A DNA stretch of 64,000 nucleotides from Catenuloplanes niger. Lineage in GTDB: Bacteria; Actinomycetota; Actinomycetes; Mycobacteriales; Micromonosporaceae. This document shows, one piece after another, positions 28,092 through 49,368 of this stretch. Position 1 is the stretch's first letter, and every line of letters begins with the position of its first letter. The notes beneath the pieces were generated by a model. That model saw only the letters and a list, made by a program, of their open reading frames with translations. It searched no databases and had not been told where the DNA came from. The stretch spans positions 1,302,001 through 1,366,000 of the forward strand of contig NZ_JAVDYC010000001.1 of NCBI RefSeq assembly GCF_031458255.1, in the 5' to 3' direction. The position numbers and the translations under genes were made by a program.

Positions 28092-29108
28092 TTACTTCGC
28101 GGCGGTGGCCAGGGCCTGCCTGACCGCCGCGGCCACCCGGGCGTCCTCGCGCGCCCGGCGGCGGTGGCGCAGCCGGACGGTGAGTGTCAGGAGGGCGGCC
28201 AGGAGCACGAGCGCGAGCAGGAGCAGCCACGGTACGGCCCAGGTCGTCGCCTCGGCGGAGACCGGTGCCAGCATCGAGCGGGAGCCGGACGGGTCGATGA
28301 TCAGCGGGGTCAGCGTGGTGGTGCCGGTCAGCAGCAGCGCCGCGGGGACGTCCGCGACCGGCACGGTGACCGGCCAGGACTCGCCGGGCAGCAGCTCCGG
28401 CGGGGCCGCGATGTCGCCGGCGTCGGAGCGGAACCAGCCGAACGGGCCGGCCACGGACGCGGCCTGGGTCGCGGACAGCGTGGTGTTGCCGGTGTTCTCG
28501 ATCGTGTACGACACCGTGGCCGCGCCGCCCGCGAACGGGTTCCACGAGCCGTCGTAGGAGACGCGCATGCCGGAGACCGCGAGCGACGGCGCCAGCTCGC
28601 CACCGACGCGCAGCGTGATCCGGATGCCGAGGCGGCGTTCCACATTGACCTGCTGGGTGGTGTCCGGGCTGGTCAGCGACGTGACGATGCCACCGACGTA
28701 GTCGCCGGGCGTGGCGTCGGCCGGCACCGCGACGGTGAACGGCACGTCCGCGGTGGTGCCCGGCTGGACGGTGACCGTGCCGCCGGACGATGCCCACGCC
28801 CCGACGCCGGTCTGCGGCACGTCCCGGTTGCGCAGGTCGAGCCCGCCCTCGCCGGTGGTGAAGCCGTCCGCGGCGTACACGGTCAGGGTCAGCGCCGTGG
28901 TGCCGCGGTTGGCGACGACCATGGCGTCGGAAACCGTACCGCCGGGGTTGATGGCGTAGCTGTAGCTGGACCGGTCGGCGCCGAGGCTGTTCGAGGCGGT
29001 CCGCACCGTCCAGGTCACGTCGCCCTCCTCGGCCATCGCCGGGGTGGCCCACAGGCCGGCCGAGACGGCGGCCGCGAGCACGGCCAGGACGGTGTTCTTC
29101 CAACGCAT
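28092..29108 (-). CDS. DUF916-like (WxL-interacting) exported membrane-anchored protein
   Basis: A 338-residue protein with a signal peptide (about 1-26, cleaving near PAMA-EEG), two immunoglobulin-like beta domains (about 27-265; AINPGGTVSDAMVVANRG, GDYVGGIVTSLTS), then a C-terminal membrane helix (about 285-310) and a basic cytoplasmic tail. The NPG-x-T-x-D start is characteristic of DUF916, known in Gram-positive bacteria as a peptidoglycan- or WxL-protein-interacting domain. It is likely a cell-wall-facing accessory protein. It is downstream of, and on the same strand as, the secreted phosphatase gene. Confidence 0.85.
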   Translation of the reverse strand: MRWKNTVLAVLAAAVSAGLWATPAMAEEGDVTWTVRTASNSLGADRSSYSYAINPGGTVSDAMVVANRGTTALTLTVYAADGFTTGEGGLDLRNRDVPQTGVGAWASSGGTVTVQPGTTADVPFTVAVPADATPGDYVGGIVTSLTSPDTTQQVNVERRLGIRITLRVGGELAPSLAVSGMRVSYDGSWNPFAGGAATVSYTIENTGNTTLSATQAASVAGPFGWFRSDAGDIAAPPELLPGESWPVTVPVADVPAALLLTGTTTLTPLIIDPSGSRSMLAPVSAEATTWAVPWLLLLALVLLAALLTLTVRLRHRRRAREDARVAAAVRQALATAAK

Positions 29109-34409: not shown

Positions 34410-35156
34410 ATGACCGACGCGCTGGAGTTCGGTGTGCTGGGGCCGCTGCGGATGTGGCCGCCGGGCGCCGATGCCACGCTGACCGCGCCGCGGCTGCGCG
34501 GCCTGTTGACGCTGCTGCTGGTGGAGCCGGAGCCGGTGCCGGTCGGGCAGGCCGCGGCCGCGTGCGGCGGGCGGGGCACGGCCGGGCCGGTGCACGTGGC
34601 GATCCACCGGCTGCGGCGCTGGCTGCGCGAGCACGGCGGGCCGCGGCTGGAGCTGACGCCGGCCGGCTACCGGCTGGACGTACCGGCGGAGGCGGTGGAT
34701 GCGGGCCGGTTCCGGCGGCTGGTCGCGGACGGGCGGGCCCGGCGGGACACCGGCACGCTGATCGAGGCGCTGGAACTGTGGCGTGGCCCGGTCGCGGCCG
34801 ACGCGCCGCACACCCTGCGGCAGCGGTACGCGGTGCGCACGCTGGACCGGGTGCGCCGCGAGGTGACCACGGAGGTCGCGACCGCGTGCCTGGCCGACGG
34901 CACCGCGCACCGGTCGCTGCCGCTGGTCGAGCGGATGGCCGAGTCCGCACCGCTGGACGAGCTGGCCCAGTCGCTGCGCGCGCTCACGCTCGCCGCCTGC
35001 GGCCTGCAGGCGGAGGCACTGGACGTGATCACCCGGACCACCCGGCTGCTCGCCGAGGAGCTGGGCGTGGACGCGGGACAGCACCTGGCGGAGGCCCGTC
35101 TCCGGGTCCTCCGCCAGGACTATGCTCAGTTGCCGTTGATCAACCACATGGCGTAG
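34410..35156 (+). CDS. SARP-like (AfsR/BTAD) transcriptional regulator
   Basis: A 248-residue regulator with the compact SARP layout. An N-terminal OmpR-like winged helix (about 5-90; FGVLGPLRMWPPG, TAPRLRGLLTLLLVEP, VAIHRLRRWLREHGG, LELTPAGYRLDV) is followed by the bacterial transcriptional activation domain (about 97-245; DAGRFRRLVADGRARRDTG, ALTLAACGLQAEALDVI). No NB-ARC or TPR extension. SARPs normally activate specialised-metabolism genes, but none is adjacent; its neighbour is the large cellulase gene, whose 3' end it overlaps by 31 bp convergently. GTG/ATG choice: the ATG at 34410 has GGGG spacing of a few bases. Confidence 0.87.
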   Translation: MTDALEFGVLGPLRMWPPGADATLTAPRLRGLLTLLLVEPEPVPVGQAAAACGGRGTAGPVHVAIHRLRRWLREHGGPRLELTPAGYRLDVPAEAVDAGRFRRLVADGRARRDTGTLIEALELWRGPVAADAPHTLRQRYAVRTLDRVRREVTTEVATACLADGTAHRSLPLVERMAESAPLDELAQSLRALTLAACGLQAEALDVITRTTRLLAEELGVDAGQHLAEARLRVLRQDYAQLPLINHMA

Positions 35157-38100
35157 TCGGGGCTGAACGTACCGGCGGGCAGCCCTTCGATCCGGCCGCA
35201 GTCCGCGCCGTCGGAGTCACCCGGGACCTTCAGCCAGAGCAGCATCTCCGCGCCGGAGGCGTTCAGCCGCGAGGTCGGGCCGAGCTTGACGCCGGTCGGG
35301 TTGCACCAGTCGCCCTTGTGCCCGTTGCCGTTGCGGCTGGTGTCGATCACGAACGGCTTGGGCGAGGCCAGGGCCGCGTTGATGTCGTTCGCGTAGGTGG
35401 TGGAGTTCGCGGTGGGCCAGAAGTTCGACGTGTTCACCGCGAAGCCGTGCGCGTTCGTGATCCCGGCCCGGCCCAGCCGCTCCGCCATCGTCGCCGCCGC
35501 GACCCAGCCGGCGTTACCCGCGTCGACATACGTCCAGACCTGCCCGCCGAACGCGTTCACCGCGTGCGTGACCAGCCCGAACCGCTCGGTGATCTGCGCC
35601 TCGGAGAGGCAGTCGAGCTGGGTCACCGCGTCCGGTTCGATGACCACGACGGCCGGTCGTCCCGCGACGCCCGCGGCGAAGTCGGTCATCCACTGCCGGT
35701 ACGCGGCCGCGTTCGCCGCGCCACCGGCGGACTGGCCTTCGCAGTCGCGCTTCGGGATGTTGTAGGCGACCAGGATCGGCACCTTCCCCGCGGCGGTCGC
35801 GCCGTCGAGGTAGGCGTCGGTGGCCGCCTCGATGTCACCGCTCCAGTCGCCGAACCAGCGCGCACCCGGGTGCTCGGCCAGATTCTCGCGGATCGTCGCG
35901 GCGCGCGCGTCGTCCGGGTTCTCCGCCACCCAGGCCAGCGGGTTCGAGTCCGGGTCGGTGTAGAAGCCGTTCGCGGCCGCGATCTGCCCCGGGGTCTGCC
36001 CGGCCGGCGGCGTGATGTCCCGGACCCAGTCACCGGCGAGCGGCCGGTCGCCGTTCGCCCCGAAGGTGAACTCGGCGTAGTCGGCGTTGCCGGACGCGTT
36101 GGTGTTCTTCAGGAACCAGCTGTTCGGTGCCCGGAACACGCCCACGGTGTCCGTCCCGTCGCCGTTCCAGTCGCCGACCACCGGCTTGTCACCGGCGCTG
36201 CCGTAGACGAACGGGGTCTCCGACACCGTGTTCGCCAGCTCGTCGCGCAGCGCGAACCGGCGCTCGGACGCCCGGTGCCAGCCGAGGCCGTCCGTGCCGT
36301 CTCCGTCCCAGTCACCGCTCAGGATGGTGTCGCCGACCGCACCGATCTTGACGCTCTTCTCGGACGCGCCCGGCGAGTTCGTGTTCCGGATCCGGACGGT
36401 CTGGTCACCGGGCCGCCAGGTGGCGAACGTGTCCTTGCCGTCACCGTCCCAGTCGCCGGCCAGCGGCACGTCGGAACTGGTCGCGAGCGTGGACACGTAG
36501 GAGACGTCGGGGTTGCCGGTGCCGCTGAACGCGTTCCGCAGGATCACGGTCCGGGTCGACGGCACCCAGAAGCCGATGCCGTCCACGCCGTCGCCGTCCC
36601 AGTCGCCGACGAACGCGATCGAGCCGGGCTGGACCTGGACCTGGGCGTTCGCGGTGCCGGTCGACAGGCTGTTCCGGGCGTACACGATGTTCGCCGACGA
36701 CCGGTGGACGGCGATCGTGTCCCGCTTGCGCGGTCCCGGCTCGGGCTCCGGGTCCGGGCCGGTGCCGCCGCCGCCCTTGCCGAGCAGTGCGAACGCCAGC
36801 AGGCCGGTGGCCGTGAAGTCGATCGCGGGCTCGTTGCTCATCCACGCCTCGGTGTCGTCCAGGTACCGGGCACCGTTGCCGGAGAACGCCGCGTACCGGT
36901 CCACGCCGTCCGCCGGGCAGGAGTCGCTGGTCTCCAGGCCGTCGAACACCCGCTCACCGTTCGGGCCGTTGACCGCGGCCCCGGTCAGGATGGCGCCGGT
37001 GCCGTCCGGGCTTCCGTTCAGGTCCGCGACCTGGTGGTGCGGGCACACCGGGAACGTGTCACCGACGCCGATGATCAGCGACAGGCCCCAGGGGTTGCCG
37101 CCGAGCGCCCAGTTCGCCTGCGACTGCACGAAGTTCGCGTACGTGTTCGTGCCGCTGACCTGGTCGTACCGGTGCGCCTGGGCGATCAGCCCCATCGTGT
37201 ACGAGGTCGAGTCGTAGTTCGTGTACTCCGCACCGGCACCGAACCGGTCCGTCTGCGCCCGGGTGACGGCCGCGTCCAGCCGGGCCCGCTGGTGGCTGAG
37301 CAGCGCCTCCGGGGTGACCGCCAGGCCGGTGGCGCCGGCCGCCTCGATCTCCTCGGCCAGGTCGGGCAGCGCGATGCCGCCCACGTCGTAGAGGTTCAGC
37401 GTGCTGCCGCCGTCGGCCATGTAGTTCGCCGCGTGCTGCGCGGCCAGGCTGAGCCAGGTGCCGGCGCGGGGGTCGCCGAGCGCGCGGGCCGCCCGGGCGA
37501 GCTCCGTCGCGCCGTACGCCATGTCGTCGCGCCAGACCGTCTCCGGGTAGAACGACCACGGGTACGACGTGACCAGCGGCGACGGCGGGTTGACGTACTG
37601 CGCCTTGGCGTAGATCGCGGCCGCCTTCGCCAGGTCCTCCGCCGCCCGGGCCGGGTCGTCGGCCGCGTGCAGCTGCGCGGAGAGGGCGAACGCGGCGGAG
37701 ACCCGCCCGGCCAGGTTCGGGCTGATCTGCCCGCCGGGCGCGTTGGCGCGCAGCACCGGCCGGTAGCGCAGGTAGTAGAAACCCTTCCCGGCCGGGTCCT
37801 GGATGTCGTGGTCGCTCTCGGGCAGCCGCCACTTCTCGTGGTCGCCCTTGAAGTCGCCGTTGCCACCGCCGAGACCGACCTGGACGTAGAGCACCTCGCT
37901 GCCCTCGTCCCACATCTTGTCCAGCCAGTCCATCGCGTGGTCGATCTCGGCCGCGCGGGCCGGGTCGGCGCTGCCGGACCGCTCGGCGATCTGCAGCGCG
38001 CCGACCGCGTACGCGGTGGTGTGGGTGAACTTCAGGTAGTCGCCGGCGTCGAACCAGCCGCCGGAGACGTCCACCTTCGCCGCGTTGCGGATCGGTGTGA

Positions 38101-38656
38101 GGGTGCCCTGGATCGTGTCGCTGCCGTCCTGGAACACCGGCACGTTGTAGACGGTCGCGGACACGTCCTCCGGGTGCGCGGCCTGCCGGCCCAGTGCGCC
38201 GGGGACGACGTTCGCGCCGTCGCGTTGCACCTGGAAGAACTGGCTCATCGCGCGCGAGACCGGTGCGTAGAGGTCCGCCCGGGCGGCGATCTCGAACGTC
38301 GGCGACGTACCCACGCCGGTGATCTGGATCGTGTAGCTGCCCGGCGCGGTCACGGCCGAGAAGTCGATCGGCCAGACCGCGGTGTACCCGCTGTTCCAGG
38401 AGCCGCGGCTGTTGCCGGTGGTGCCGGACAGCACGGTCGCGCCCGCCGCGTCGACGACCCGGAACGCGGGCCTCGCCTGCGCGGTCGTCCCCATCAGGTA
38501 GGCGATCTTCTCCTGCCCGGCCTGGTAGCCGACCTGGTTGAGCCGGATGTACGAGGTCACGGCCGCGGCCGCGGGCGACGGTGTGACGGTCAGGCCCCCG
38601 GCCGCCAGCAGCAGGGCTGCGGCGAGGGCGGTGGCGGTTCGTACCGGTGGTCTCAT
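35126..38656 (-). CDS. Secreted bifunctional cellulase: GH9 + FG-GAP-like repeats + GH6
   Basis: A 1176-residue exported protein: signal peptide (about 1-34); CelD-type N-terminal Ig domain (about 35-125, SYIRLNQVGYQAGQEKIAYL); GH9 catalytic domain (about 130-630) with VSGGWFDAGDYLKFTH carrying the Asp pair, GGNPWGLSLIIG, PHHQ and the acid Glu in NEPAIDFTATGLLAFAL; a linker of four GDWDGDG-type FG-GAP/VCBS repeats plus a partial one (about 640-890); and a GH6 domain (about 895-1176) with RWFGDWSGDI, ILVAYNIPKRDC, VVIEPDAVTQL and WLKVPGDSDG. Expected to combine endoglucanase and cellobiohydrolase-like action on cellulose. The ATG at 38656 follows GGGGAC by 6 nt; the frame continues upstream through the sulfatase gene but that part is not protein-like. 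A CelR-like operator lies 26 bp upstream. Confidence 0.93.
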   Translation of the reverse strand: MRPPVRTATALAAALLLAAGGLTVTPSPAAAAVTSYIRLNQVGYQAGQEKIAYLMGTTAQARPAFRVVDAAGATVLSGTTGNSRGSWNSGYTAVWPIDFSAVTAPGSYTIQITGVGTSPTFEIAARADLYAPVSRAMSQFFQVQRDGANVVPGALGRQAAHPEDVSATVYNVPVFQDGSDTIQGTLTPIRNAAKVDVSGGWFDAGDYLKFTHTTAYAVGALQIAERSGSADPARAAEIDHAMDWLDKMWDEGSEVLYVQVGLGGGNGDFKGDHEKWRLPESDHDIQDPAGKGFYYLRYRPVLRANAPGGQISPNLAGRVSAAFALSAQLHAADDPARAAEDLAKAAAIYAKAQYVNPPSPLVTSYPWSFYPETVWRDDMAYGATELARAARALGDPRAGTWLSLAAQHAANYMADGGSTLNLYDVGGIALPDLAEEIEAAGATGLAVTPEALLSHQRARLDAAVTRAQTDRFGAGAEYTNYDSTSYTMGLIAQAHRYDQVSGTNTYANFVQSQANWALGGNPWGLSLIIGVGDTFPVCPHHQVADLNGSPDGTGAILTGAAVNGPNGERVFDGLETSDSCPADGVDRYAAFSGNGARYLDDTEAWMSNEPAIDFTATGLLAFALLGKGGGGTGPDPEPEPGPRKRDTIAVHRSSANIVYARNSLSTGTANAQVQVQPGSIAFVGDWDGDGVDGIGFWVPSTRTVILRNAFSGTGNPDVSYVSTLATSSDVPLAGDWDGDGKDTFATWRPGDQTVRIRNTNSPGASEKSVKIGAVGDTILSGDWDGDGTDGLGWHRASERRFALRDELANTVSETPFVYGSAGDKPVVGDWNGDGTDTVGVFRAPNSWFLKNTNASGNADYAEFTFGANGDRPLAGDWVRDITPPAGQTPGQIAAANGFYTDPDSNPLAWVAENPDDARAATIRENLAEHPGARWFGDWSGDIEAATDAYLDGATAAGKVPILVAYNIPKRDCEGQSAGGAANAAAYRQWMTDFAAGVAGRPAVVVIEPDAVTQLDCLSEAQITERFGLVTHAVNAFGGQVWTYVDAGNAGWVAAATMAERLGRAGITNAHGFAVNTSNFWPTANSTTYANDINAALASPKPFVIDTSRNGNGHKGDWCNPTGVKLGPTSRLNASGAEMLLWLKVPGDSDGADCGRIEGLPAGTFSPDYAMWLINGN

Positions 38657-38739: not shown

Positions 38740-40332
38740 TCAGGCACGCACCATCGCGGCCTTGTCGCAGGCCACGCGGCCCCGGCAGGCCACCAGCGCG
38801 GTCAGCGCCGCGTCCATCGCGGCCCGGCGGGCCGGGCTGAGCGCCGCCGCGGTGTTGCGCAACTGGTGCGGGTCGGTGCGGCGGTCGTAGAACTCGCGTG
38901 CGCCGTTCGCATATCTCACGAACGTCCACTCCGGAGTCCGGAGTGCCACATAGGACTCCGGAATCACCTTCTGCCGGTCCGGATCGTCCGGACGTGACTC
39001 CGGACGGCGGTGCTCGACCAACGCGGCGGTTCGCCAACCGGAGCTCACGATACCGGAGTTCTCCGGAATTCCGGAGTCCCGCGGCATCCCGGAATACACC
39101 GGAATTCCGGAGGGGGTCAGTAGGAGCGGACCACGGCCGCCGACCGCGCCCGGCGGGGCCGGTGGTGAGGGCTCGCGTCCGGCGTCGCCCGCGGTGATCA
39201 GCGGCAGCAGGCTGCGGCCGTCCACGTCCGGCGGCGTGACCGCGCCGCCCAGCGCGTCGAACGTGGGCCGCAGATCGATGTTCGCCGCCGTCTCCGCGAC
39301 GGTCGCGCCCCGCCGCAGACCGGGACCGGACATGATCAGCGGCACCCGGACGTCCGTCTCGAACGCGGTCTGCTTGCCCACGGTGAGCCGGTACTGCCCG
39401 AGGTGGAACCCGTTGTCGGAGCTGAACACGAGCACGGTGTCGTCCGCGACGCCGGTCTCCACCAGCGCGGCCCGCAGTCCGCCGATCATCCGGTCGATCG
39501 ACAGCACCGACTGCGCCCGCTTGCGGTAGGCGTCGTCGATCCGGGCGATCTGGGCCGGCGTGAGCGGCGGCCGCGCGGCCAGCCACGGCGGTGGGTTCGC
39601 CGGCAGCCGGTCGAACGCCGGCCCGCGCGGCGCGGTCAGCCCGGGGAACGCGTGCGCGTCCTGCGGCGCCGGCGTGAACGGCGCGTGCGGCGAGAACGTG
39701 GAGATCTCCACCAGGAACGGCTGCTTGCGCTGCGCGGACGTGCGCACGAACGCCTCCGCCTTCGCGCCGAGCACCGCGGTGAGGTACTGCCCGCCGTACC
39801 CGCGGATCCGCCCGTTCTCGTTGAGCGTGTACCCGACCTGCGCGTACGCGTTGCCCGCGACCGCCCACTCGTCCCACCCCGGCGGCACGTGCCCGGACGC
39901 CGGGTCGTACCCGTTGAGGTACTTGCCGAACATCGCGGTGCGGTAGCCGGCCGCGCGCAGTCCGGTCGCGAACGTGTTCTCCTCGTTGCCGCGCCGCCGG
40001 AACACCGCGAACCCGCCGTCCGGCCCCGCGTTCGTGAACACCCCGGTGTTGTGCGGGAACTTGCCGGTCAGGATCGACGCGCGGGACGGGCAGCAGAGCG
40101 AGTCGGTGACCACGTAGTCGGTGAACGACACCCCCTCGGCCGCCAGCTTCCGCACCTGCGGCATGAACCGCAGCAGATCCACGGTCAGGTCGTCGGTCAG
40201 CACGAACACGATGTTCGGCCGCCCCACGGCCGCCCCCGGCGCCACCGGCTCCACCCGGGCCCCGGGCCCACACGTCACCGCCAGGCACAACGTCATCAAC
40301 GCCGCCCCGGCGCCCCGCAGCACAGACCTCAC
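38740..40332 (-). CDS. Secreted sulfatase (formylglycine-dependent)
   Basis: A 530-residue sulfatase with an N-terminal export signal (MRSVLRGAGAALMTLCLAV) and the alkaline-phosphatase fold. Metal-binding NIVFVLTDDLTVDLL; the formylglycine motif is CPSR inside DSLCCPSRASILTG; further blocks are YRTAMFGKYLNGY, FSPHAPFTP and VLVFSSDNGFHLGQYRL. It removes sulfate esters from glycans or aryl sulfates after formylglycine activation. Near residues 405-470 the chain has a low-complexity insertion with repeated SGIP/ENSGI units, encoded by DNA dense in TCCGGA. The GTG start follows GGGAG by 6 nt. Upstream of the cellulase on the same strand, 83 bp apart; a shared transcript is possible. Confidence 0.9.
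   Translation of the reverse strand: MRSVLRGAGAALMTLCLAVTCGPGARVEPVAPGAAVGRPNIVFVLTDDLTVDLLRFMPQVRKLAAEGVSFTDYVVTDSLCCPSRASILTGKFPHNTGVFTNAGPDGGFAVFRRRGNEENTFATGLRAAGYRTAMFGKYLNGYDPASGHVPPGWDEWAVAGNAYAQVGYTLNENGRIRGYGGQYLTAVLGAKAEAFVRTSAQRKQPFLVEISTFSPHAPFTPAPQDAHAFPGLTAPRGPAFDRLPANPPPWLAARPPLTPAQIARIDDAYRKRAQSVLSIDRMIGGLRAALVETGVADDTVLVFSSDNGFHLGQYRLTVGKQTAFETDVRVPLIMSGPGLRRGATVAETAANIDLRPTFDALGGAVTPPDVDGRSLLPLITAGDAGREPSPPAPPGAVGGRGPLLLTPSGIPVYSGMPRDSGIPENSGIVSSGWRTAALVEHRRPESRPDDPDRQKVIPESYVALRTPEWTFVRYANGAREFYDRRTDPHQLRNTAAALSPARRAAMDAALTALVACRGRVACDKAAMVRA
38930..39111. repeat. Cluster of nine TCCGGA hexamers inside the sulfatase gene
   Basis: TCCGGA occurs at 38930, 38937, 38957, 38978, 38987, 38999, 39062, 39070 and 39106, nine times in 182 bp, with several near-copies (ACCGGA, TCCCGGA) and two CCGGAATTCCGGA palindromes. 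It encodes the low-complexity insertion of the sulfatase. It looks like a local short-repeat expansion. Confidence 0.8.
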
Positions 40333-42870: not shown

Positions 42871-42882
42871 TATCGTTGCCGG

Positions 42883-43488
42883 GTGCGAGCGGACGGCGCC
42901 CGGAACCGGCGACACATCATCGACACGGCCCGCGCGTTGATCGCGGCCAACGGCACCGGCGTGACGCTGCGCGCGGTCGCCCGGCGGGCCGGGGTCGGCA
43001 CGGCCACCGTCACCCGGCACTTCCCGACCCGGGAGGCGCTGATCGACGCGGCCTCCGCCCGCCAGTTCGAGATCTGCACCGAGGTGATCGACGAGTCGCT
43101 CGCCGACCCCGACCCCTGGCACGGCCTGACCGCGATGGTGGACCGGGTGTTCGACCCGCGGGCCCGGCGCCACGACATGCCGGTGGCGGAGATGCTCGAC
43201 GCACCGGCCGGGCAACGGGCGATCACCGGCGTCTGCGAGCTGACCCGGCGGGCGCAGGAGGCCGGCCGGCTGCGCGCCGACTTCGAACCCCACGATCTGC
43301 TGCTGCTGATGCGGGCCGGGGAGAGCCTGGCCGAGACCTCACCGCAGGCGGCGCGCCGGCTGGCCGCGTACCTGCTGCAGTCGTTCGCCGCGCGCACCGC
43401 GCCGCTGCCGCCGGGCGGGCAACCGATACATCCGCTCACCGGCGTTGCTCACTTCCCGCCGGAGCAGGGGCAGACGGCCGTGGCGTGA
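42883..43488 (+). CDS. TetR family regulator next to a flavin monooxygenase pair
   Basis: A 201-residue repressor: helix-turn-helix IIDTARALIAANGTGVTLRA and VARRAGVGTATVTRHFPTRE, then an all-helical ligand domain (about 60-185). The VTRHFPTRE signature belongs to the TetR branch often beside oxidoreductases. GTG start; TATCGT at 42871-42876 ends 6 bp before it, suggesting a leaderless transcript. The monooxygenase gene follows 59 bp downstream on the same strand, so the regulator probably controls that pair. Ligand unknown. Confidence 0.87.
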   Translation: MRADGARNRRHIIDTARALIAANGTGVTLRAVARRAGVGTATVTRHFPTREALIDAASARQFEICTEVIDESLADPDPWHGLTAMVDRVFDPRARRHDMPVAEMLDAPAGQRAITGVCELTRRAQEAGRLRADFEPHDLLLLMRAGESLAETSPQAARRLAAYLLQSFAARTAPLPPGGQPIHPLTGVAHFPPEQGQTAVA

Positions 43489-43547
43489 TTAGCGTTCCCC
43501 TCGGTTCCGGTTCCACCGAATCCGGCTCACCGAATCGAGGAGAACAG

Positions 43548-44705
43548 ATGAACACCGACCGTACGGACCTGGTGGCCCGCGCCCGCGCGCTGCGCCCCGA
43601 GATGTCGGCGAACGGCTTCCGCGCCGACGCCGAGGGTACGGACGTCGCGGACAACATGCGGCTGCTCGGCGAGGCCGGGCTGGACCGGCTCAACGTGCCG
43701 GTCGAGTTCGGCGGCCTCTGGGACGGTGCCTGGGGCGGGCTGCCGGAGACGATCGAGGCCATCGTGGAGGTGTCCGCGGCGGACGGCTCGACCGGGCAGT
43801 GCTGGAGCGCCAACGCGCTGGTCGCCCGCCAGATCTTCATCTCCGACATACCGCGTGAGGTCCGGCGGCAGGTCGCGGACGAGCTGATCACGGACGGGCG
43901 GCGCCTGGTGTCGTCCGCGTCGGAGGCCGGTGGGACGGGGCCGGTGACCGGGCGACGGGTGCCCGGCGGCATCGTCGTCGACGGCACGAAGACGTTCAAC
44001 ACCAACAGCGGAGGCGGCGGGCGGGACCTGCTGCACGTCCGGTTCCTGCTGGACGGCGCACCGCACCAGGCGCTCGTCCGGCTGGACGACCCCGGGCTGA
44101 CCGCGGCGCACGACTGGGACAACATGGGCCAGCGCGGCACGGACAGCCAGACCATCGTGTACGAGAACGTGTTCGTGCCGGACGGCTGGCACTTCCCGCC
44201 CGCCGCGATCGACCCGTACCTGCTCAGCGCCGTCATGCTGACCCACGCGGCGCTGCTGCAGGGGCTCGGCGAGGGCGCGCTCGAGGCCACGACCGGCTAC
44301 CTGCGCACCGTCAACCGGGCCAGCATGCCGAAGTTCGCCGGTACCCGGGAGGACCCGCTGATCCACCGCCGCCTCGGCGAGATGTCCAGCGACCTGGCCG
44401 CCGCGCGGGCGCTGCTGCTGGCCGTGGCCGCGGAGATCGCGGCCGGCACCACGGACCCGGCCGAGACCGGCGTGCGTGGCTTCCGGGCGAAGGTGGCGAG
44501 CACGGCCGCGGGCCTGCGGGTGACCGCGGACATCCACGAGCTCACCGGCGGGCGCGGCACCTCGAACCGGTACCGGTTCGACCGGTACTGGCGCAACGCC
44601 CGCGCGTTCGCCTCGCACGACTCACTCGACGCGAAGATGGCGTTCGTCGGCGCGTACGAGGTGACCGGCGCGCTGCCGGACATCACCGAGTACCTGGCGG
44701 TCTAG
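43548..44705 (+). CDS. Flavin-dependent monooxygenase of acyl-CoA-dehydrogenase fold (DszC/HpaB-like)
   Basis: A 385-residue enzyme of the group D flavin monooxygenase type. It follows the acyl-CoA dehydrogenase plan: helical N-terminus (DNMRLLGEAGLDRLNVPVEF), a beta-domain with SASEAGGTGPVTGRRVPGG and DNMGQRGTDSQTIVYENVFV, and a helical C-terminus (ELTGGRGTSNRYRFDRYWRN). The catalytic glutamate of true dehydrogenases is not evident, and the next gene encodes a flavin reductase, so oxygenation using reduced flavin is the better call than beta-oxidation. Candidate substrates include organosulfur or aromatic compounds (by family only). ATG after GAGGAG. Confidence 0.85.
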   Translation: MNTDRTDLVARARALRPEMSANGFRADAEGTDVADNMRLLGEAGLDRLNVPVEFGGLWDGAWGGLPETIEAIVEVSAADGSTGQCWSANALVARQIFISDIPREVRRQVADELITDGRRLVSSASEAGGTGPVTGRRVPGGIVVDGTKTFNTNSGGGGRDLLHVRFLLDGAPHQALVRLDDPGLTAAHDWDNMGQRGTDSQTIVYENVFVPDGWHFPPAAIDPYLLSAVMLTHAALLQGLGEGALEATTGYLRTVNRASMPKFAGTREDPLIHRRLGEMSSDLAAARALLLAVAAEIAAGTTDPAETGVRGFRAKVASTAAGLRVTADIHELTGGRGTSNRYRFDRYWRNARAFASHDSLDAKMAFVGAYEVTGALPDITEYLAV

Positions 44706-45938: not shown

Positions 45939-46176
45939 GCGAGTCAGGGTCCTCCTCCGGGAGCAGCACGATCACTTCGGCACCGAGGCGGCGCAGGATC
46001 CGGAGAATCCGGTCGAGCAGCAGGGTGGTGGCCCCGGCTTCGATCCGTGCCAGGTAGGTGCGCTCGACGGTCGCGAGTTCTGCCGTGGCGACCTGCGTCA
46101 GGCCGCGAATAGCGCGTGCCTCCGCGATAGCCACGCCGAAGTCTGCGCCCGAGCGGACCAATGCTCGCCGCGCCAT
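45931..46176 (-). CDS. hipB: HipB-like XRE antitoxin/repressor
   Basis: An 81-residue helix-turn-helix protein: FGVAIAEARAIRGLTQVATA, then ELATVERTYLARIEAGATTL (recognition helix) and a C-terminal strand-helix RILRRLGAEVIVLLPEED like HipB. It appears intact. The ATG at 46176 has AGGAGGTGG just upstream. Its stop overlaps the start region of the hipA remnant, the normal hipBA order. HipB represses its own operon and inhibits HipA; with hipA deleted, only the DNA-binding role can remain. Three operator copies lie directly upstream. Confidence 0.87.
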   Translation of the reverse strand: MARRALVRSGADFGVAIAEARAIRGLTQVATAELATVERTYLARIEAGATTLLLDRILRILRRLGAEVIVLLPEEDPDSRP

Positions 46177-46191
46177 CCCACCACCTCCTAC

Positions 46192-46282
46192 TGTGCGATT
46201 TCCCCACACCGAGATCTTTCAGGGGGTTGTGGGGATTTCCGCACAACGATAGTAGAGGCACCATTGTGCGGAAATCAGCACA
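46192..46282. promoter_or_regulatory. Three hipB operator copies and promoter
   Basis: Sites at 46192-46208, 46228-46245 and 46265-46282 read, on the minus strand, TGTGGGGAAATCGCACA, TGTGCGGAAATCCCCACA and TGTGCTGATTTCCGCACA: one 17-18 bp TGTG-N-CACA motif spaced 36-37 bp. A TACTAT -10-like hexamer lies between the second and third sites, so binding would block transcription of hipBA. Confidence 0.75.
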
Positions 46283-46287
46283 GGACG

Positions 46288-46322
46288 CCGAAAGGCGTCC
46301 TCCGACGGAGGACGCCTTTCGG
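46288..46322 (-). terminator. 17-bp stem terminator after GH92 gene
   Basis: CCGAAAGGCGTCCTCCG (46288-46304) pairs perfectly with CGGAGGACGCCTTTCGG (46306-46322), leaving a minimal loop, 12 bp after the GH92 stop. A very strong stem without T-run. Confidence 0.8.
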
Positions 46323-46334
46323 GTCGAGGGGTGG

Positions 46335-49235
46335 TCAGCCGATGGTGACGTCGAAGATGTGCATGATGCCGCGGTCGCTGCCCTGGGGCAGGATGACGGC
46401 GTCGACGGTTTTGGACGGGTCGAGGGCGGCCGGGTCGGTGGCGAAGACGCGGAAGGTGCCGCCGCCGGTGGTGCCGTTGGCGTTGTTGCGGCCCTCGACG
46501 GTCAGCATCGCGGTGCTGCCGGCCGGCGCGGTCGCGGCCCAGTCGCCGAAGGTCAGCGGGACGTCCTGGGTGGTGCCGTCGGTGTAGACGACCTGGGCGG
46601 TGCCGGTGGCCGGGCCGTTGGTGGCCAGGCCGAGGAACGAGACCGCGTTCGCCGGGCGGTCGGCCAGGTCGACGCGCTGGCCGTGCGGGATCCAGTTGTC
46701 CGGTGTGCCCGGCGCGGCCGTGGGCCAGGTGAACGTCAGGTCGCCGTGCCTGATCGCCGCGCCCGGTGCGGCACCGGCGGCGGCGAGCGAGTCGCGGGAG
46801 TACGACCAGTCGCTCAGGTCCATCGAGCCGAGGTTGCCCTGACCGCGCGGCGTGGTGCCGACGTTGTTGCGGGCGTCCGCACCGTCCGAGTAGGACGGTG
46901 GGACGTCGGCGGCGCCGGTGCCCCACGCGGTCGGCGTGGCGGACATGACGAAGCGCAGCTTGCCGCCCGCGCGGACGAACTCGGCACCGACCCACGACGC
47001 GGTCTGCCGCTCGCCGTCGACCCGGAGGTCCCGGACGTAACGCCTGCCGTCCTCGACGCCGGGCGCCTGGATCTCGATGTCGGCGTCGCCACCGATCGGG
47101 CGGATGTCGATCTGCGCGAACATCGGTGCGTGCACGACCAGCGTGCCGGTGCCGTAGATCGCCGGGTAGAAGCCCAGGTGCGCGAAGACCAGCCAGGCGC
47201 TGAGCGCGCCCTGGTCGTCGTTGCCGGGCAGGCCGGACGGCGTCGTGTCGTACATCTCGGTGACCGCGCGGTGGAGCACGTCCACGGTCCTCGACGGCGC
47301 CCGCAGCCAGTTGTAGACCCACGGCGTACCGAACGCGGGCTGGTTGGACAGGTAGTTGCCGGTCTGCGTGTACGCGCCCGCGTCGAGCTGCGCCATCAGC
47401 ACGTCGAGCTGCGCGGTCGAGGCGGCCACCCCACCACGCTTGGCGATCAACGTGGACAGGTTGTGCGGGACGAGCCAGCCGTACTGGTAGCCGGTCGACT
47501 GGTTGAACTGGCCGCGACCGGCGCCGTCCTCGCGTACCCGCAGGTCGAAGTTCTGGTCGAAGCCGGTGCGCTCGCGGGGGCGGAGGTGGCCGGTGGCCGG
47601 GTCGAACACGTTCATCCAGTTCTGCGCGCGGGCCATGAAGAAGTCGTAGGACTCACGGTCACCGAGGCGGCGAGCCTGCTGCGCGATCGCGAAGTCGTCG
47701 ATCGCGTACTCCAGCACCCGGGACGTGGCGAAGTCGCCCTTCCGGTTCTCGATCAGGCCGGTCGCGAAGTACTGGTACGCGTCCGTGCGCCTCGACGCGG
47801 TCGCGGGCAGCTTCTGCGTGGTGACCATGGACTTCAGCGCGGCGGCCCGGTCGTAGTCGGTGATCCCCATGTCGTCCAACGTGGACAGGATCACCTGCAG
47901 GTTGTCGCCCTGCATGCGGGACGCGCCGGGCGCCCAGCCACCGGTCTGCCGGGTCAGCAGCACGATCGACGCGTTGATGTCCGACGCGACCCTCGGGTGC
48001 GTCAGCGCGATCAGCTGCGCCTGGCTGCGGTACATGTCCCAGCCGGACCCGGCGAAGTTGATGTTGGTGTAGAAGTGCCGGCCCTTCTCGACCAGGTGCA
48101 CCTGCCGGTCGTACCCCAGGTACTGGCCGTTGACGTCCTCCCGCGCGTTCGGGTGCAGGAACGAGTGGTAGAGCGCGGTGTAGAACATGACGCGCCGCTC
48201 GTCCGAGCCGCCCTTGACGTCGACCGTGCCGAGCGCCTTCTCCCACGCCTTCCGCGCGTCCTTGCGGACCGTGTCGAACGACTTCCGGCCCACCTCCACG
48301 GTACGGTTCTCGGCCGCGTTCGCCACGCTCACGTAGCTGAACCCGGTGCTCGCGGTGACGGTCGCGCCGGCCGGGAACGTCAGCCACGCGCCGTTGTCGT
48401 GCCGGAAGTCGACGCCGGTGTCCGTGCCGCTCTTCTCGACGGTCGTCGCGCCCGCGGTCAGCGTGTCGTCCTTCCACACGCCGTACGACGCGAAGTCGGT
48501 GTCGTACACGGTGGAGAAGTAGGCGCGGTAGAGGTTGCCGTTGTCGCAGACATCCGTGCCGTACATCCAGCCGGACACCGTGCGCGTCGCCGGGTCGATG
48601 GTGACCGCGCTGCCGAACGTGCGGTTGTTCGGCCCGGACACGTCAAGGATCAGCGTGGCGTTCGCGCCGAACCCGAAGCGGCTCACCGCGGTCCGGGTGG
48701 TCGCGGTCAGCTCCGTGGTGACACCGTTGTCCAGCGCCACCCGGTAGTAGCCCGGCTCGGACTCCTCGTTCGCGTGCGCGAACCTCAGGTAGTACGGCTT
48801 GATGTCGGTCGCCGGGCTGGACGGCAGCACGCCGCCGGGCAGCTCACCCGCGTACGGGATGACCGGGAACTCGTAGCCGCCGAACCGGCCGGTGCACCCG
48901 GTCCCGGAGTGGCGGGTCATGCCGAAGCCGCGGATCAGGTCGGCGGTGTACTCGTACCCGCCCTTCTCCCCCACCAGCGCGTTGCCCGGCTGGTACGTCG
49001 TCGGGCTCGGCTGCACCATGCCGAACGGCAGCGCCGCGCCCGGATACGTGTTGCCGTACGCGTCGTTGCTCTTGTTCTGCGTCGTGTCCATCTCGGTGCC
49101 GATGAACTGGTCGACCGCGTCGAACGGCGCGATCACCTTCGCCGCCGCGCCCGCCGGTGCGCCGGCGAGAGGCGCCAGCACGGTCGCCGCGACCGCGGCC
49201 GCCGCCCACCGGCGCGGGGTACTCCACCCGAGCAT
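46335..49235 (-). CDS. Secreted GH92 alpha-1,2-mannosidase
   Basis: A 966-residue exported exo-mannosidase. Signal peptide (about 1-34, ending AGAAAK). The GH92 N-terminal beta-sandwich starts VDQFIGTEMDTTQNKSNDAY and GNTYPGAALPFGMVQPSP. The (alpha/alpha)6 catalytic domain contains YTALYHSFLHPN, NFAGSGWDMYRSQAQLIAL and GNDDQGALSAWLVFAHLGFY, with PGNDDQG being the calcium/catalytic block. A C-terminal extra domain of about 200 residues (DLSDWSYSRDSLAAAG onward) resembles a carbohydrate-binding beta-sandwich. It trims alpha-mannosides from fungal or yeast mannan and N-glycans. The ATG at 49235 follows AAAGGA. No operon partner; the sigma factor gene is divergent. Confidence 0.93.
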   Translation of the reverse strand: MLGWSTPRRWAAAAVAATVLAPLAGAPAGAAAKVIAPFDAVDQFIGTEMDTTQNKSNDAYGNTYPGAALPFGMVQPSPTTYQPGNALVGEKGGYEYTADLIRGFGMTRHSGTGCTGRFGGYEFPVIPYAGELPGGVLPSSPATDIKPYYLRFAHANEESEPGYYRVALDNGVTTELTATTRTAVSRFGFGANATLILDVSGPNNRTFGSAVTIDPATRTVSGWMYGTDVCDNGNLYRAYFSTVYDTDFASYGVWKDDTLTAGATTVEKSGTDTGVDFRHDNGAWLTFPAGATVTASTGFSYVSVANAAENRTVEVGRKSFDTVRKDARKAWEKALGTVDVKGGSDERRVMFYTALYHSFLHPNAREDVNGQYLGYDRQVHLVEKGRHFYTNINFAGSGWDMYRSQAQLIALTHPRVASDINASIVLLTRQTGGWAPGASRMQGDNLQVILSTLDDMGITDYDRAAALKSMVTTQKLPATASRRTDAYQYFATGLIENRKGDFATSRVLEYAIDDFAIAQQARRLGDRESYDFFMARAQNWMNVFDPATGHLRPRERTGFDQNFDLRVREDGAGRGQFNQSTGYQYGWLVPHNLSTLIAKRGGVAASTAQLDVLMAQLDAGAYTQTGNYLSNQPAFGTPWVYNWLRAPSRTVDVLHRAVTEMYDTTPSGLPGNDDQGALSAWLVFAHLGFYPAIYGTGTLVVHAPMFAQIDIRPIGGDADIEIQAPGVEDGRRYVRDLRVDGERQTASWVGAEFVRAGGKLRFVMSATPTAWGTGAADVPPSYSDGADARNNVGTTPRGQGNLGSMDLSDWSYSRDSLAAAGAAPGAAIRHGDLTFTWPTAAPGTPDNWIPHGQRVDLADRPANAVSFLGLATNGPATGTAQVVYTDGTTQDVPLTFGDWAATAPAGSTAMLTVEGRNNANGTTGGGTFRVFATDPAALDPSKTVDAVILPQGSDRGIMHIFDVTIG

Positions 49236-49368
49236 GCGATGTCCTTTCAGGGGATGTGCGTCCGGCAGTATCGTGGCCCCACCCGACTTCGTGATGAACA
49301 CCGATCCCACCCGAAGATCAACACCACGCGTCGGTACGTGGACGAGCGCGCTCGCGCGTAAGAGAACT

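Follow-up and report, generated by a model that had tools for sequence, protein, structure and literature searches.

Among secreted chains that carry two enzymes, CelA of Caldicellulosiruptor bescii (GH9-CBM3c-CBM3b-CBM3b-GH48) has an N-terminal glycoside hydrolase family 9 (GH9) domain and a second enzyme of family 48 (GH48), joined through carbohydrate-binding modules (CBMs); Xyn10C/Cel48B of the same organism is likewise CBM-linked, according to the part of PMC6892212 that describes these proteins. In actinobacteria, a Kribbella protein with the organization CBM4/9-CelD-GH9-GH6 unites GH9 with glycoside hydrolase family 6 (GH6), and a survey published in 2016 and covering 11,953 genomes recorded three proteins uniting the two families, as given in the available part of PMC4928363. 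The GH9-GH6 fusion itself is thus already in print and rare. The present analysis concerns a 64,000-nucleotide stretch of the 9.74-Mb genome of the soil actinobacterium Catenuloplanes niger (contig NZ_JAVDYC010000001.1, positions 1,302,001 to 1,366,000), hereafter the window, and one gene in it whose product shows the CelD_N-GH9-GH6 order of the Kribbella protein. Compared by description only, the latter differs in its N-terminal CBM4/9 and in that no propeller is named for it in that part of the paper, whereas in C. niger five repeats, predicted to form a propeller, stand between the two enzymes. The C. bescii chains differ in their CBM linkage and in having GH48 instead of GH6 as second enzyme.

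The GH9-propeller-GH6 architecture is real and rare. The best explanation as a whole, to which a probability of roughly 0.55 is attached, is a two-enzyme cellulase in which the propeller would be a pendant anchor, originally the tail of a GH9 enzyme to which the GH6 domain was appended.

Architecture of the gene

The gene starts with an ATG at 38656 and its stop codon ends at 35126 on the minus strand, leaving a single frame of 1176 amino acids without internal stop. A preliminary description, made from the letters alone, had proposed GH9 and GH6 in one secreted chain and one frame, in the order signal, CelD_N, GH9, repeats, GH6. Open reading frame and Pfam bear out both the order and the exact coordinates, and the two catalytic domains belong to their families by wide scores: 207.3 bits against a cut-off of 27.7 for GH9 and 163.2 bits against 27 for GH6. 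Secretion is read by eye from the signal-like N-terminus and is to that extent presumptive. The features of the gene are as follows.

35126..38656 (-): GH9-propeller-GH6 gene, presumably secreted product, complete, 1176 aa (open reading frame, Pfam, full-length relatives in five other genomes)
38564..38656 (-): putative signal peptide, residues 1-31, sequence MRPPVRTATALAAALLLAAGG..., cleavage site judged by eye
38309..38557 (-): CelD_N Ig-like domain, residues 34-116 (Pfam PF02927, 79.8 bits, well over its cut-off)
36806..38269 (-): GH9 catalytic domain, residues 130-617 (Pfam PF00759, 207.3 bits)
36725..36772 (-): linker 1, residues 629-644, Gly/Pro/Asp/Glu-rich (predicted local distance difference test, pLDDT, < 50 at protein 629-642)
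36017..36724 (-): predicted five-bladed FG-GAP-like propeller, residues 645-880 (AlphaFold2; alignment with 22 other modules)
36587..36724 (-): repeat unit 1, residues 645-690 (repeat alignment)
36437..36586 (-): repeat unit 2, residues 691-740 (repeat alignment)
36296..36436 (-): repeat unit 3, residues 741-787 (repeat alignment)
36155..36295 (-): repeat unit 4, residues 788-834 (repeat alignment)
36017..36154 (-): repeat unit 5, residues 835-880, GDWVRD at its end (repeat alignment, AlphaFold2)
35984..36016 (-): linker 2, residues 881-891 (pLDDT < 50 at protein 880-885)
35129..35983 (-): GH6 catalytic domain, residues 892-1176 (Pfam PF01341, 163.2 bits, match 916-1151; alignment to 1tml and 6fao)

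In common with proteins of the CelA kind, the chain has two cellulase-family catalytic domains (by Pfam) behind a signal peptide (by eye). A CBM between them, which proteins of that kind possess, was not found: Pfam lists no CBM at E ≤ 1 anywhere in the 1176 residues. The NCBIfam scan of the protein returned only a weak CelK match, far below its cut-off. A sequencing error or frameshift that splits the gene at a junction, a concern raised beforehand, is ruled out by the recurrence of the whole protein in five other genomes. Foreign origin of a part was considered on composition and dropped, as third-position GC shows no contrast among GH9 (0.975), propeller (0.962) and GH6 (0.954).

Catalytic motifs had been claimed for both halves and are present in both. 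In GH9, DAGD at 203 and NEPAIDFTA at 608 place D203, D206 and E609, which are kept in 8/8 aligned rows, the window's own included. In GH6, YNIPKRDC at 965 and IEPDA at 1006, together with GDSDG, give D971 (RDC), D1009 (EPD) and D1149; these are kept in all seven aligned rows having GH6, again counting that of the window. The catalytic roles of these six residues are assumed here. Among solved structures the GH6 sequence is nearest to the Thermobifida fusca endoglucanase E2 (1tml) and to 6fao (E 1.7e-60 and 2.3e-65), with which it shares a length of about 285 residues and the RDC, EPD and x-DG motifs, D971, D1009 and D1149 matching theirs in the alignment; the two structures differ in consisting of a single catalytic domain.

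The propeller module

The preliminary description had counted four or five GDWDGDG repeats. There are five, each of about 47 residues and of the GDW(D/N)GDG type: GDWDGDG recurs at 684, 734 and 781, GDWNGDG follows at 828 and a degenerate GDWVRD at 875. The units share a mean pairwise identity of 35%, and their mean BLOSUM score of 61.4 lies so far above that of 500 shuffles (-7.6, sd 2.7, maximum 1.7) that chance repeats are ruled out. The proposed FG-GAP likeness stands, yet by Pfam's own rule the repeats fall outside the family: the FG-GAP_3 match (Pfam PF13517) at residues 735-788 scores 12.9 bits, below the cut-off of 26.9. Relatives caught by the module's own profile pass this cut-off (for example L159 44.2, L160 38.3, L161 38.0).

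AlphaFold2, run on the module with 22 relatives, yields 20 strands, four per unit, at a pLDDT of 95.1 and a predicted template modelling score (pTM) of 0.90. Structure prediction, the check suggested for the idea of a closed propeller in the linker position, thus agrees with it: the module is predicted to be a closed five-bladed propeller, closure being judged from the strand order. Each unit opens directly behind a DGDG loop, and its final strand is the one that precedes the next such loop. The module as a whole begins immediately past a given strand and finishes with the same one, so the last strand of unit 5 (PLAGDW) should complete blade 1, bringing both chain ends to a single cut hairpin; unit 5 would have no following DGDG loop because the chain exits there. 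In the full-length model (mean pLDDT 84.1, pTM 0.59) pLDDT drops below 50 at both propeller joints, and the propeller is predicted to sit on flexible joints.

By sequence, no solved relative was found in the PDB at E ≤ 0.2, the best match having an E of 0.21. Foldseek against the PDB gave 877 matches at E ≤ 10 and eight at E ≤ 0.001. Among the best 50 of the 877, TMq does not exceed 0.54, human KICSTOR and BBSome propellers lead, the lectins PVL, PAL and AAL2 rank lower and no solved five-bladed propeller was recognised. A viral fold library gave a single hit at E ≤ 0.001, to an NHL-repeat protein, which is uninformative.

The module also occurs on other proteins. In 72 loci (within L008-L081), mostly from other lineages, 101 frames carry it; it ends no more than 25 residues from the C-terminus in 79 of these, and in 46 at least 220 of the 232 profile positions are covered in one stretch. 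Partner domains were scanned in 40 hand-chosen frames out of 145 listed, some of the 145 being one gene twice. A partner above the Pfam cut-off was present in 23 of the 40 proteins and none in 17. Nine of the 23 partners are peptidoglycan-active (M23 three, GH25 two, SpoIID two, Amidase_2 one, Glucosaminidase one); the remainder comprise four peptidases, four GH9 or GH6 domains and two each of DUF3152, CAP and DUF7948/SBBP. Because a C-terminal tail is common to wall enzymes and peptidases, these partners suggest that the propeller serves anchoring or polymer binding.

Distribution of the fusion

The whole protein recurs in three other Catenuloplanes genomes at 77-79% identity, and the whole architecture in G142 and G077, of the genus here labelled g29, at 66%. 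All five Catenuloplanes genomes have GH9 and GH6 in one frame, and four of them have the propeller. In the fifth, C. japonicus NRRL B-16061 (G003), GH9 is joined directly to GH6 at the same locus (junction LLAFALLGKG-ASVPQ-TPAQIAAANGFY), and the gene is flanked by a regulator, a sulfatase and a rhamnogalacturonan lyase, matching the window.

Across 200 genomes of the family Micromonosporaceae at least seven have GH9 and GH6 in one protein, at least six of those with the propeller too. The propeller profile matched 54 of 300 family genomes at E ≤ 1e-20, of which at least six, from two genera, have the full architecture. In 396 phylum and 394 class genomes no GH9-GH6 frame other than the window's own was present among the loci returned, the frames of L141-L144 (376-543 residues) being too short for both domains. 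The number of candidates scored per genome was nine for the propeller profile, three for the 200 family genomes and two for phylum and class; some matches came without a locus, so that absence from a genome's list is no proof of absence. With this scope the architecture deserves the term unusual that it had been given, and the many catalogued proteins of GH9-FG_GAP-GH6 order that might have spoken otherwise did not appear. In a search over open-access papers, neither a protein combining GH9, GH6 and FG-GAP nor FG-GAP as linker of glycoside hydrolase or carbohydrate-binding parts was met.

Two other GH9 fusions were seen in the phylum scan, their second domains named by eye: GH9 followed by a GH18-type-looking domain (L190) and GH9 followed by a polysaccharide-deacetylase-like domain (L140).

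Unfused relatives and the origin of the fusion

The same modules are found in separate genes in g29 and in a further genus, g24. In G110 a GH9-propeller gene (L130:8527-11199) stops directly after the module and has a SARP-type regulator downstream, like the window; no GH6 was found near it, by profile in the stretch or by eye within 900 bases downstream. G595 has a propeller-GH6 gene and then a GH9-propeller gene, consecutive on one strand with a gap of 9 bp if a GTG is taken as start. In G601 about 6 kb separates the two, an interval that contains propeller-tailed GH25 and M23 frames, and several propeller-tailed frames (GH9, GH6, GH25, M23 and one unnamed) fall within about 10.6 kb (L176:3304-13951). 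G076, of g24, has two propeller-GH6 genes, and the single GH9 match listed for it (C81, 46%) does not figure in its propeller matches. One of the propeller-GH6 genes of G076 (L132:7838-10720) encodes an additional N-terminal domain that Pfam does not name and that we take to be G1 peptidase-like; its GH6 domain may be inactive, because LEPN replaces the catalytic EPD.

Trees place these genes next to the fused ones. The GH9 tree was built with 15 of 24 other GH9 rows and the GH6 tree with 18 of 28 other GH6 rows, near-duplicates and fragments being thinned; the propeller-GH6 of G076, a 29th row, was used as such. In the GH9 tree the fused clade (seven rows, 100/98) has the GH9-propeller genes of G110, G595 and G601 as sisters, the ten rows uniting at 100/100; in the GH6 tree that place is taken by the propeller-GH6 genes of G595 and G601 (seven fused rows 100/98, all nine 99/98). 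Both trees put the C. japonicus form with the remaining Catenuloplanes sequences (94/92 for GH9 and 100/99 for GH6). With outgroups, the propeller tree unites fused and GH9-type propellers (97/94), and constraining instead fused with GH6-type or GH9-type with GH6-type propellers gives approximately unbiased test values (p-AU) of 0.039 and 0.047. Unit by unit, the fused propeller is about equally close to both types in units 1-2, and units 3-5 favour the GH9 type.

Fission of an ancestral fused gene is disfavoured by these trees, in which neither the propeller-GH6 genes of G076 nor those of G595 and G601 fall within the fused clade. A build-up of the propeller from further copies elsewhere in the genome was also considered; none was found at E ≤ 1 among 24 candidates. 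The simplest history would instead lead from a GH9 enzyme, through a GH9 enzyme with the propeller as C-terminal tail, to fusion with GH6. The GH9-propeller gene would have recombined with a propeller-GH6 gene in its vicinity, at or close to the propeller end that both share (GDRPLAGDW), which appended the GH6 domain, and C. japonicus would subsequently have dropped the propeller. Such recombination was probably easier formerly than it is now, because the DNA of the two propellers is at present only 62% alike in G595 and 66% in G601, the longest identical stretches being 19 and 17 bases. In the resulting protein GH9 and GH6 would hang from one propeller edge and cut beta-1,4-glucan side by side; with both chain ends at one cut hairpin, the propeller would be a pendant, removable without breaking either enzyme. 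A weaker inference is that it holds the enzyme on a polymer, whether the cell's own wall or matrix or a plant substrate, and so stands in for a CBM.

A number of points weigh against this explanation. The tests on the origin of the propeller are barely significant, near-equal identities to the GH6 and GH9 types in units 1-2 (0.49 and 0.49 against 0.49 and 0.47) would allow a breakpoint within the propeller, and the GH6 tree is flagged for long branches (C_G076b and others). The order in G595, with propeller-GH6 first, requires tandem duplication or unequal crossing-over for fusion. The sequence of fusion and then loss leans on parsimony and few genomes, the full architecture being known from six, and the C. 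japonicus assembly is a draft, yet a repeat collapse would not delete all five units. Constraint on the propeller is weaker than on the enzymes, which would suit a relic too, and the partner picture is partial, given the 17 of 40 proteins without a named partner and the choice of the sample by hand. Finally, the GH9 half is distant from solved GH9 enzymes (the closest, J30, BoGH9A xyloglucanase and 6fhj, are all weak, at 68.9 bits or less) and the model is poor (pLDDT < 50) at residues 569-608, the loop just before the catalytic Glu, so that cellulose as the GH9 substrate is not certain.

Function of the propeller

An extension of the tail-and-fusion history, put forward tentatively and at odds clearly below even, is that the propeller, about 225-236 residues long, serves extracellular enzymes of the Micromonosporaceae and beyond as a shared tag for anchoring at the C-terminus, comparable to a CBM or a wall repeat and directed at one common polymer, and that neighbouring tagged genes recombine through the tag into new multi-enzyme proteins.

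An alternative of rather low probability makes the propeller a functional carbohydrate-binding module that takes the place of the missing CBM and keeps GH9 and GH6 attached to cellulose or some other plant polymer. No CBM is listed in the protein, whereas the genome encodes five further GH6 proteins, of which one carries CBM_2 and another an F5/8 type C domain; the weak fold matches include the lectins PVL, PAL and AAL2 (E 2.9e-3 to 1e-2, TMq 0.42-0.50); and tachylectin-2, five-bladed and with 47-residue motifs, binds sugars between its blades, according to the portion of PMC4735018 at hand. Against this, 13 of the 23 named partners are peptidoglycan-active or peptidases and four are GH9 or GH6, C. 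japonicus retains the enzyme pair without the propeller, and the structure searches gave neither a sequence relative in the PDB at E ≤ 0.2 nor a recognised five-bladed protein among the best 50 fold matches.

It is improbable that the propeller is a functionless leftover of the fusion, retained because the enzymes are not disturbed by it. Its absence from C. japonicus with both enzymes kept would suit this reading, and so would the substitution rate, which is above that of the enzymes: in the three other propeller-bearing Catenuloplanes genomes identity to the window's protein is 67-73% for the propeller, 77-80% for GH9 and 82-84% for GH6, by which the propeller is the fastest-changing module of the protein. 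Set against this are the four GDW(D/N)GDG loops of the window and the whole five-unit pattern, kept across 57-59% identity and two genera, and omega values of 0.37-0.77, below 1 in all six propeller pairs compared, although these NG86 estimates are rough since third-position GC is about 0.96.

It is quite improbable that the enzymes really act on a beta-glucan-like polymer belonging to the organism itself, in its spore sheath or sporangium, rather than on plant cellulose. A SpoIIE-phosphatase and a BTAD regulator are neighbours of the gene, GH9 is distant from characterised cellulases, and secreted glycoside hydrolases release spores in Actinoplanes missouriensis (PMC12691653); however, those enzymes are GimA and GimB, homologs of which are reported absent from Catenuloplanes in the part of that paper available, and the neighbouring sulfatase and rhamnogalacturonan lyase suggest outside polymers.

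The suggestion of the preliminary description that the propeller could dictate how the two enzymes are arranged, as a rigid spacer fixing the relative position of their active sites, finds some encouragement in its place between them in six genomes and in omega below 1, but is highly improbable in view of the poorly modelled joints and the pTM of 0.59, chain ends that by strand order should lie together, an orthologue without propeller and 67-73% identity against 82-84% for GH6. Its relatives suggest that the propeller began as a tail on one of the two enzymes and that it can be shed, which gives it the look of an added anchor and not of a rigid spacer.

Genomic neighbourhood

The genes directly adjoining the cellulase gene are these.

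34410..35156 (+): BTAD/SARP-type regulator (Pfam BTAD), tail-to-tail with the cellulase gene, 31 bp overlap
38740..40332 (-): sulfatase (Pfam PF00884), upstream, on the same strand as the cellulase gene

The neighbours also include a divergent rhamnogalacturonan lyase of family 11 and the SpoIIE-phosphatase. Regulator and lyase flank the gene in all four other Catenuloplanes genomes and the sulfatase in three, none being found in the G001 stretch (L133). No RNA feature reached the gathering threshold within the window.

Three further frames of the window may be recorded. That at 46161-49361 (1066 residues) has no Pfam match at 1e-5 and has a relative (1656 bits) near the equivalent locus of G002 (L134). 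The frame at 28092-29108 of this actinobacterium matches WxLIP_PGBD (WxL-interacting protein, peptidoglycan-binding) at 29.5 bits, narrowly over the cut-off of 27.3. A 609-residue frame with a TTG start at 42876-44705 contains an acyl-CoA dehydrogenase C-terminal domain, and its relatives are split over two frames in G001 and G004.

Comparison with known systems

Outside the cellulases, the module can be set beside several propellers. The FG-GAP-type propeller lectins PVL, PAL and AAL2 and integrin alpha have six or seven blades and an Asp/Gly loop of a type similar to that of the module, and they appear as fold matches with E from 2.9e-3 to 1e-2 and TMq of 0.50 at most. Tachylectin-2 is not among the sequence matches or the best 50 of 877 fold matches, and we know of no GDWDGDG loops in it. 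The likeness lies in its five motifs of about 47 residues, with four strands each and a Velcro closure, as described in the accessible part of PMC4735018. The five-repeat module occurs on many secreted-type bacterial enzymes, and no solved relative was found here.

Closest of all are the g29 genes of G595 and G601, and of G110 for GH9-propeller only, which have the same modules and are the nearest relatives of both fused halves but are unfused; the propeller-GH6 genes of g24 (G076) share the modules and are likewise unfused. The most useful new facts are these neighbouring separate genes and the propeller-free orthologue of C. japonicus. Together with the window's gene they present the two enzymes in three natural states: as two nearby propeller-tagged genes, fused with a central propeller and fused without one. 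Such a series makes any added synergy on cellulose, from covalent fusion or from the propeller, directly testable. Relative to the systems described before, the fusion of GH9 with GH6 was already known, and what appears to be new is the propeller between them.

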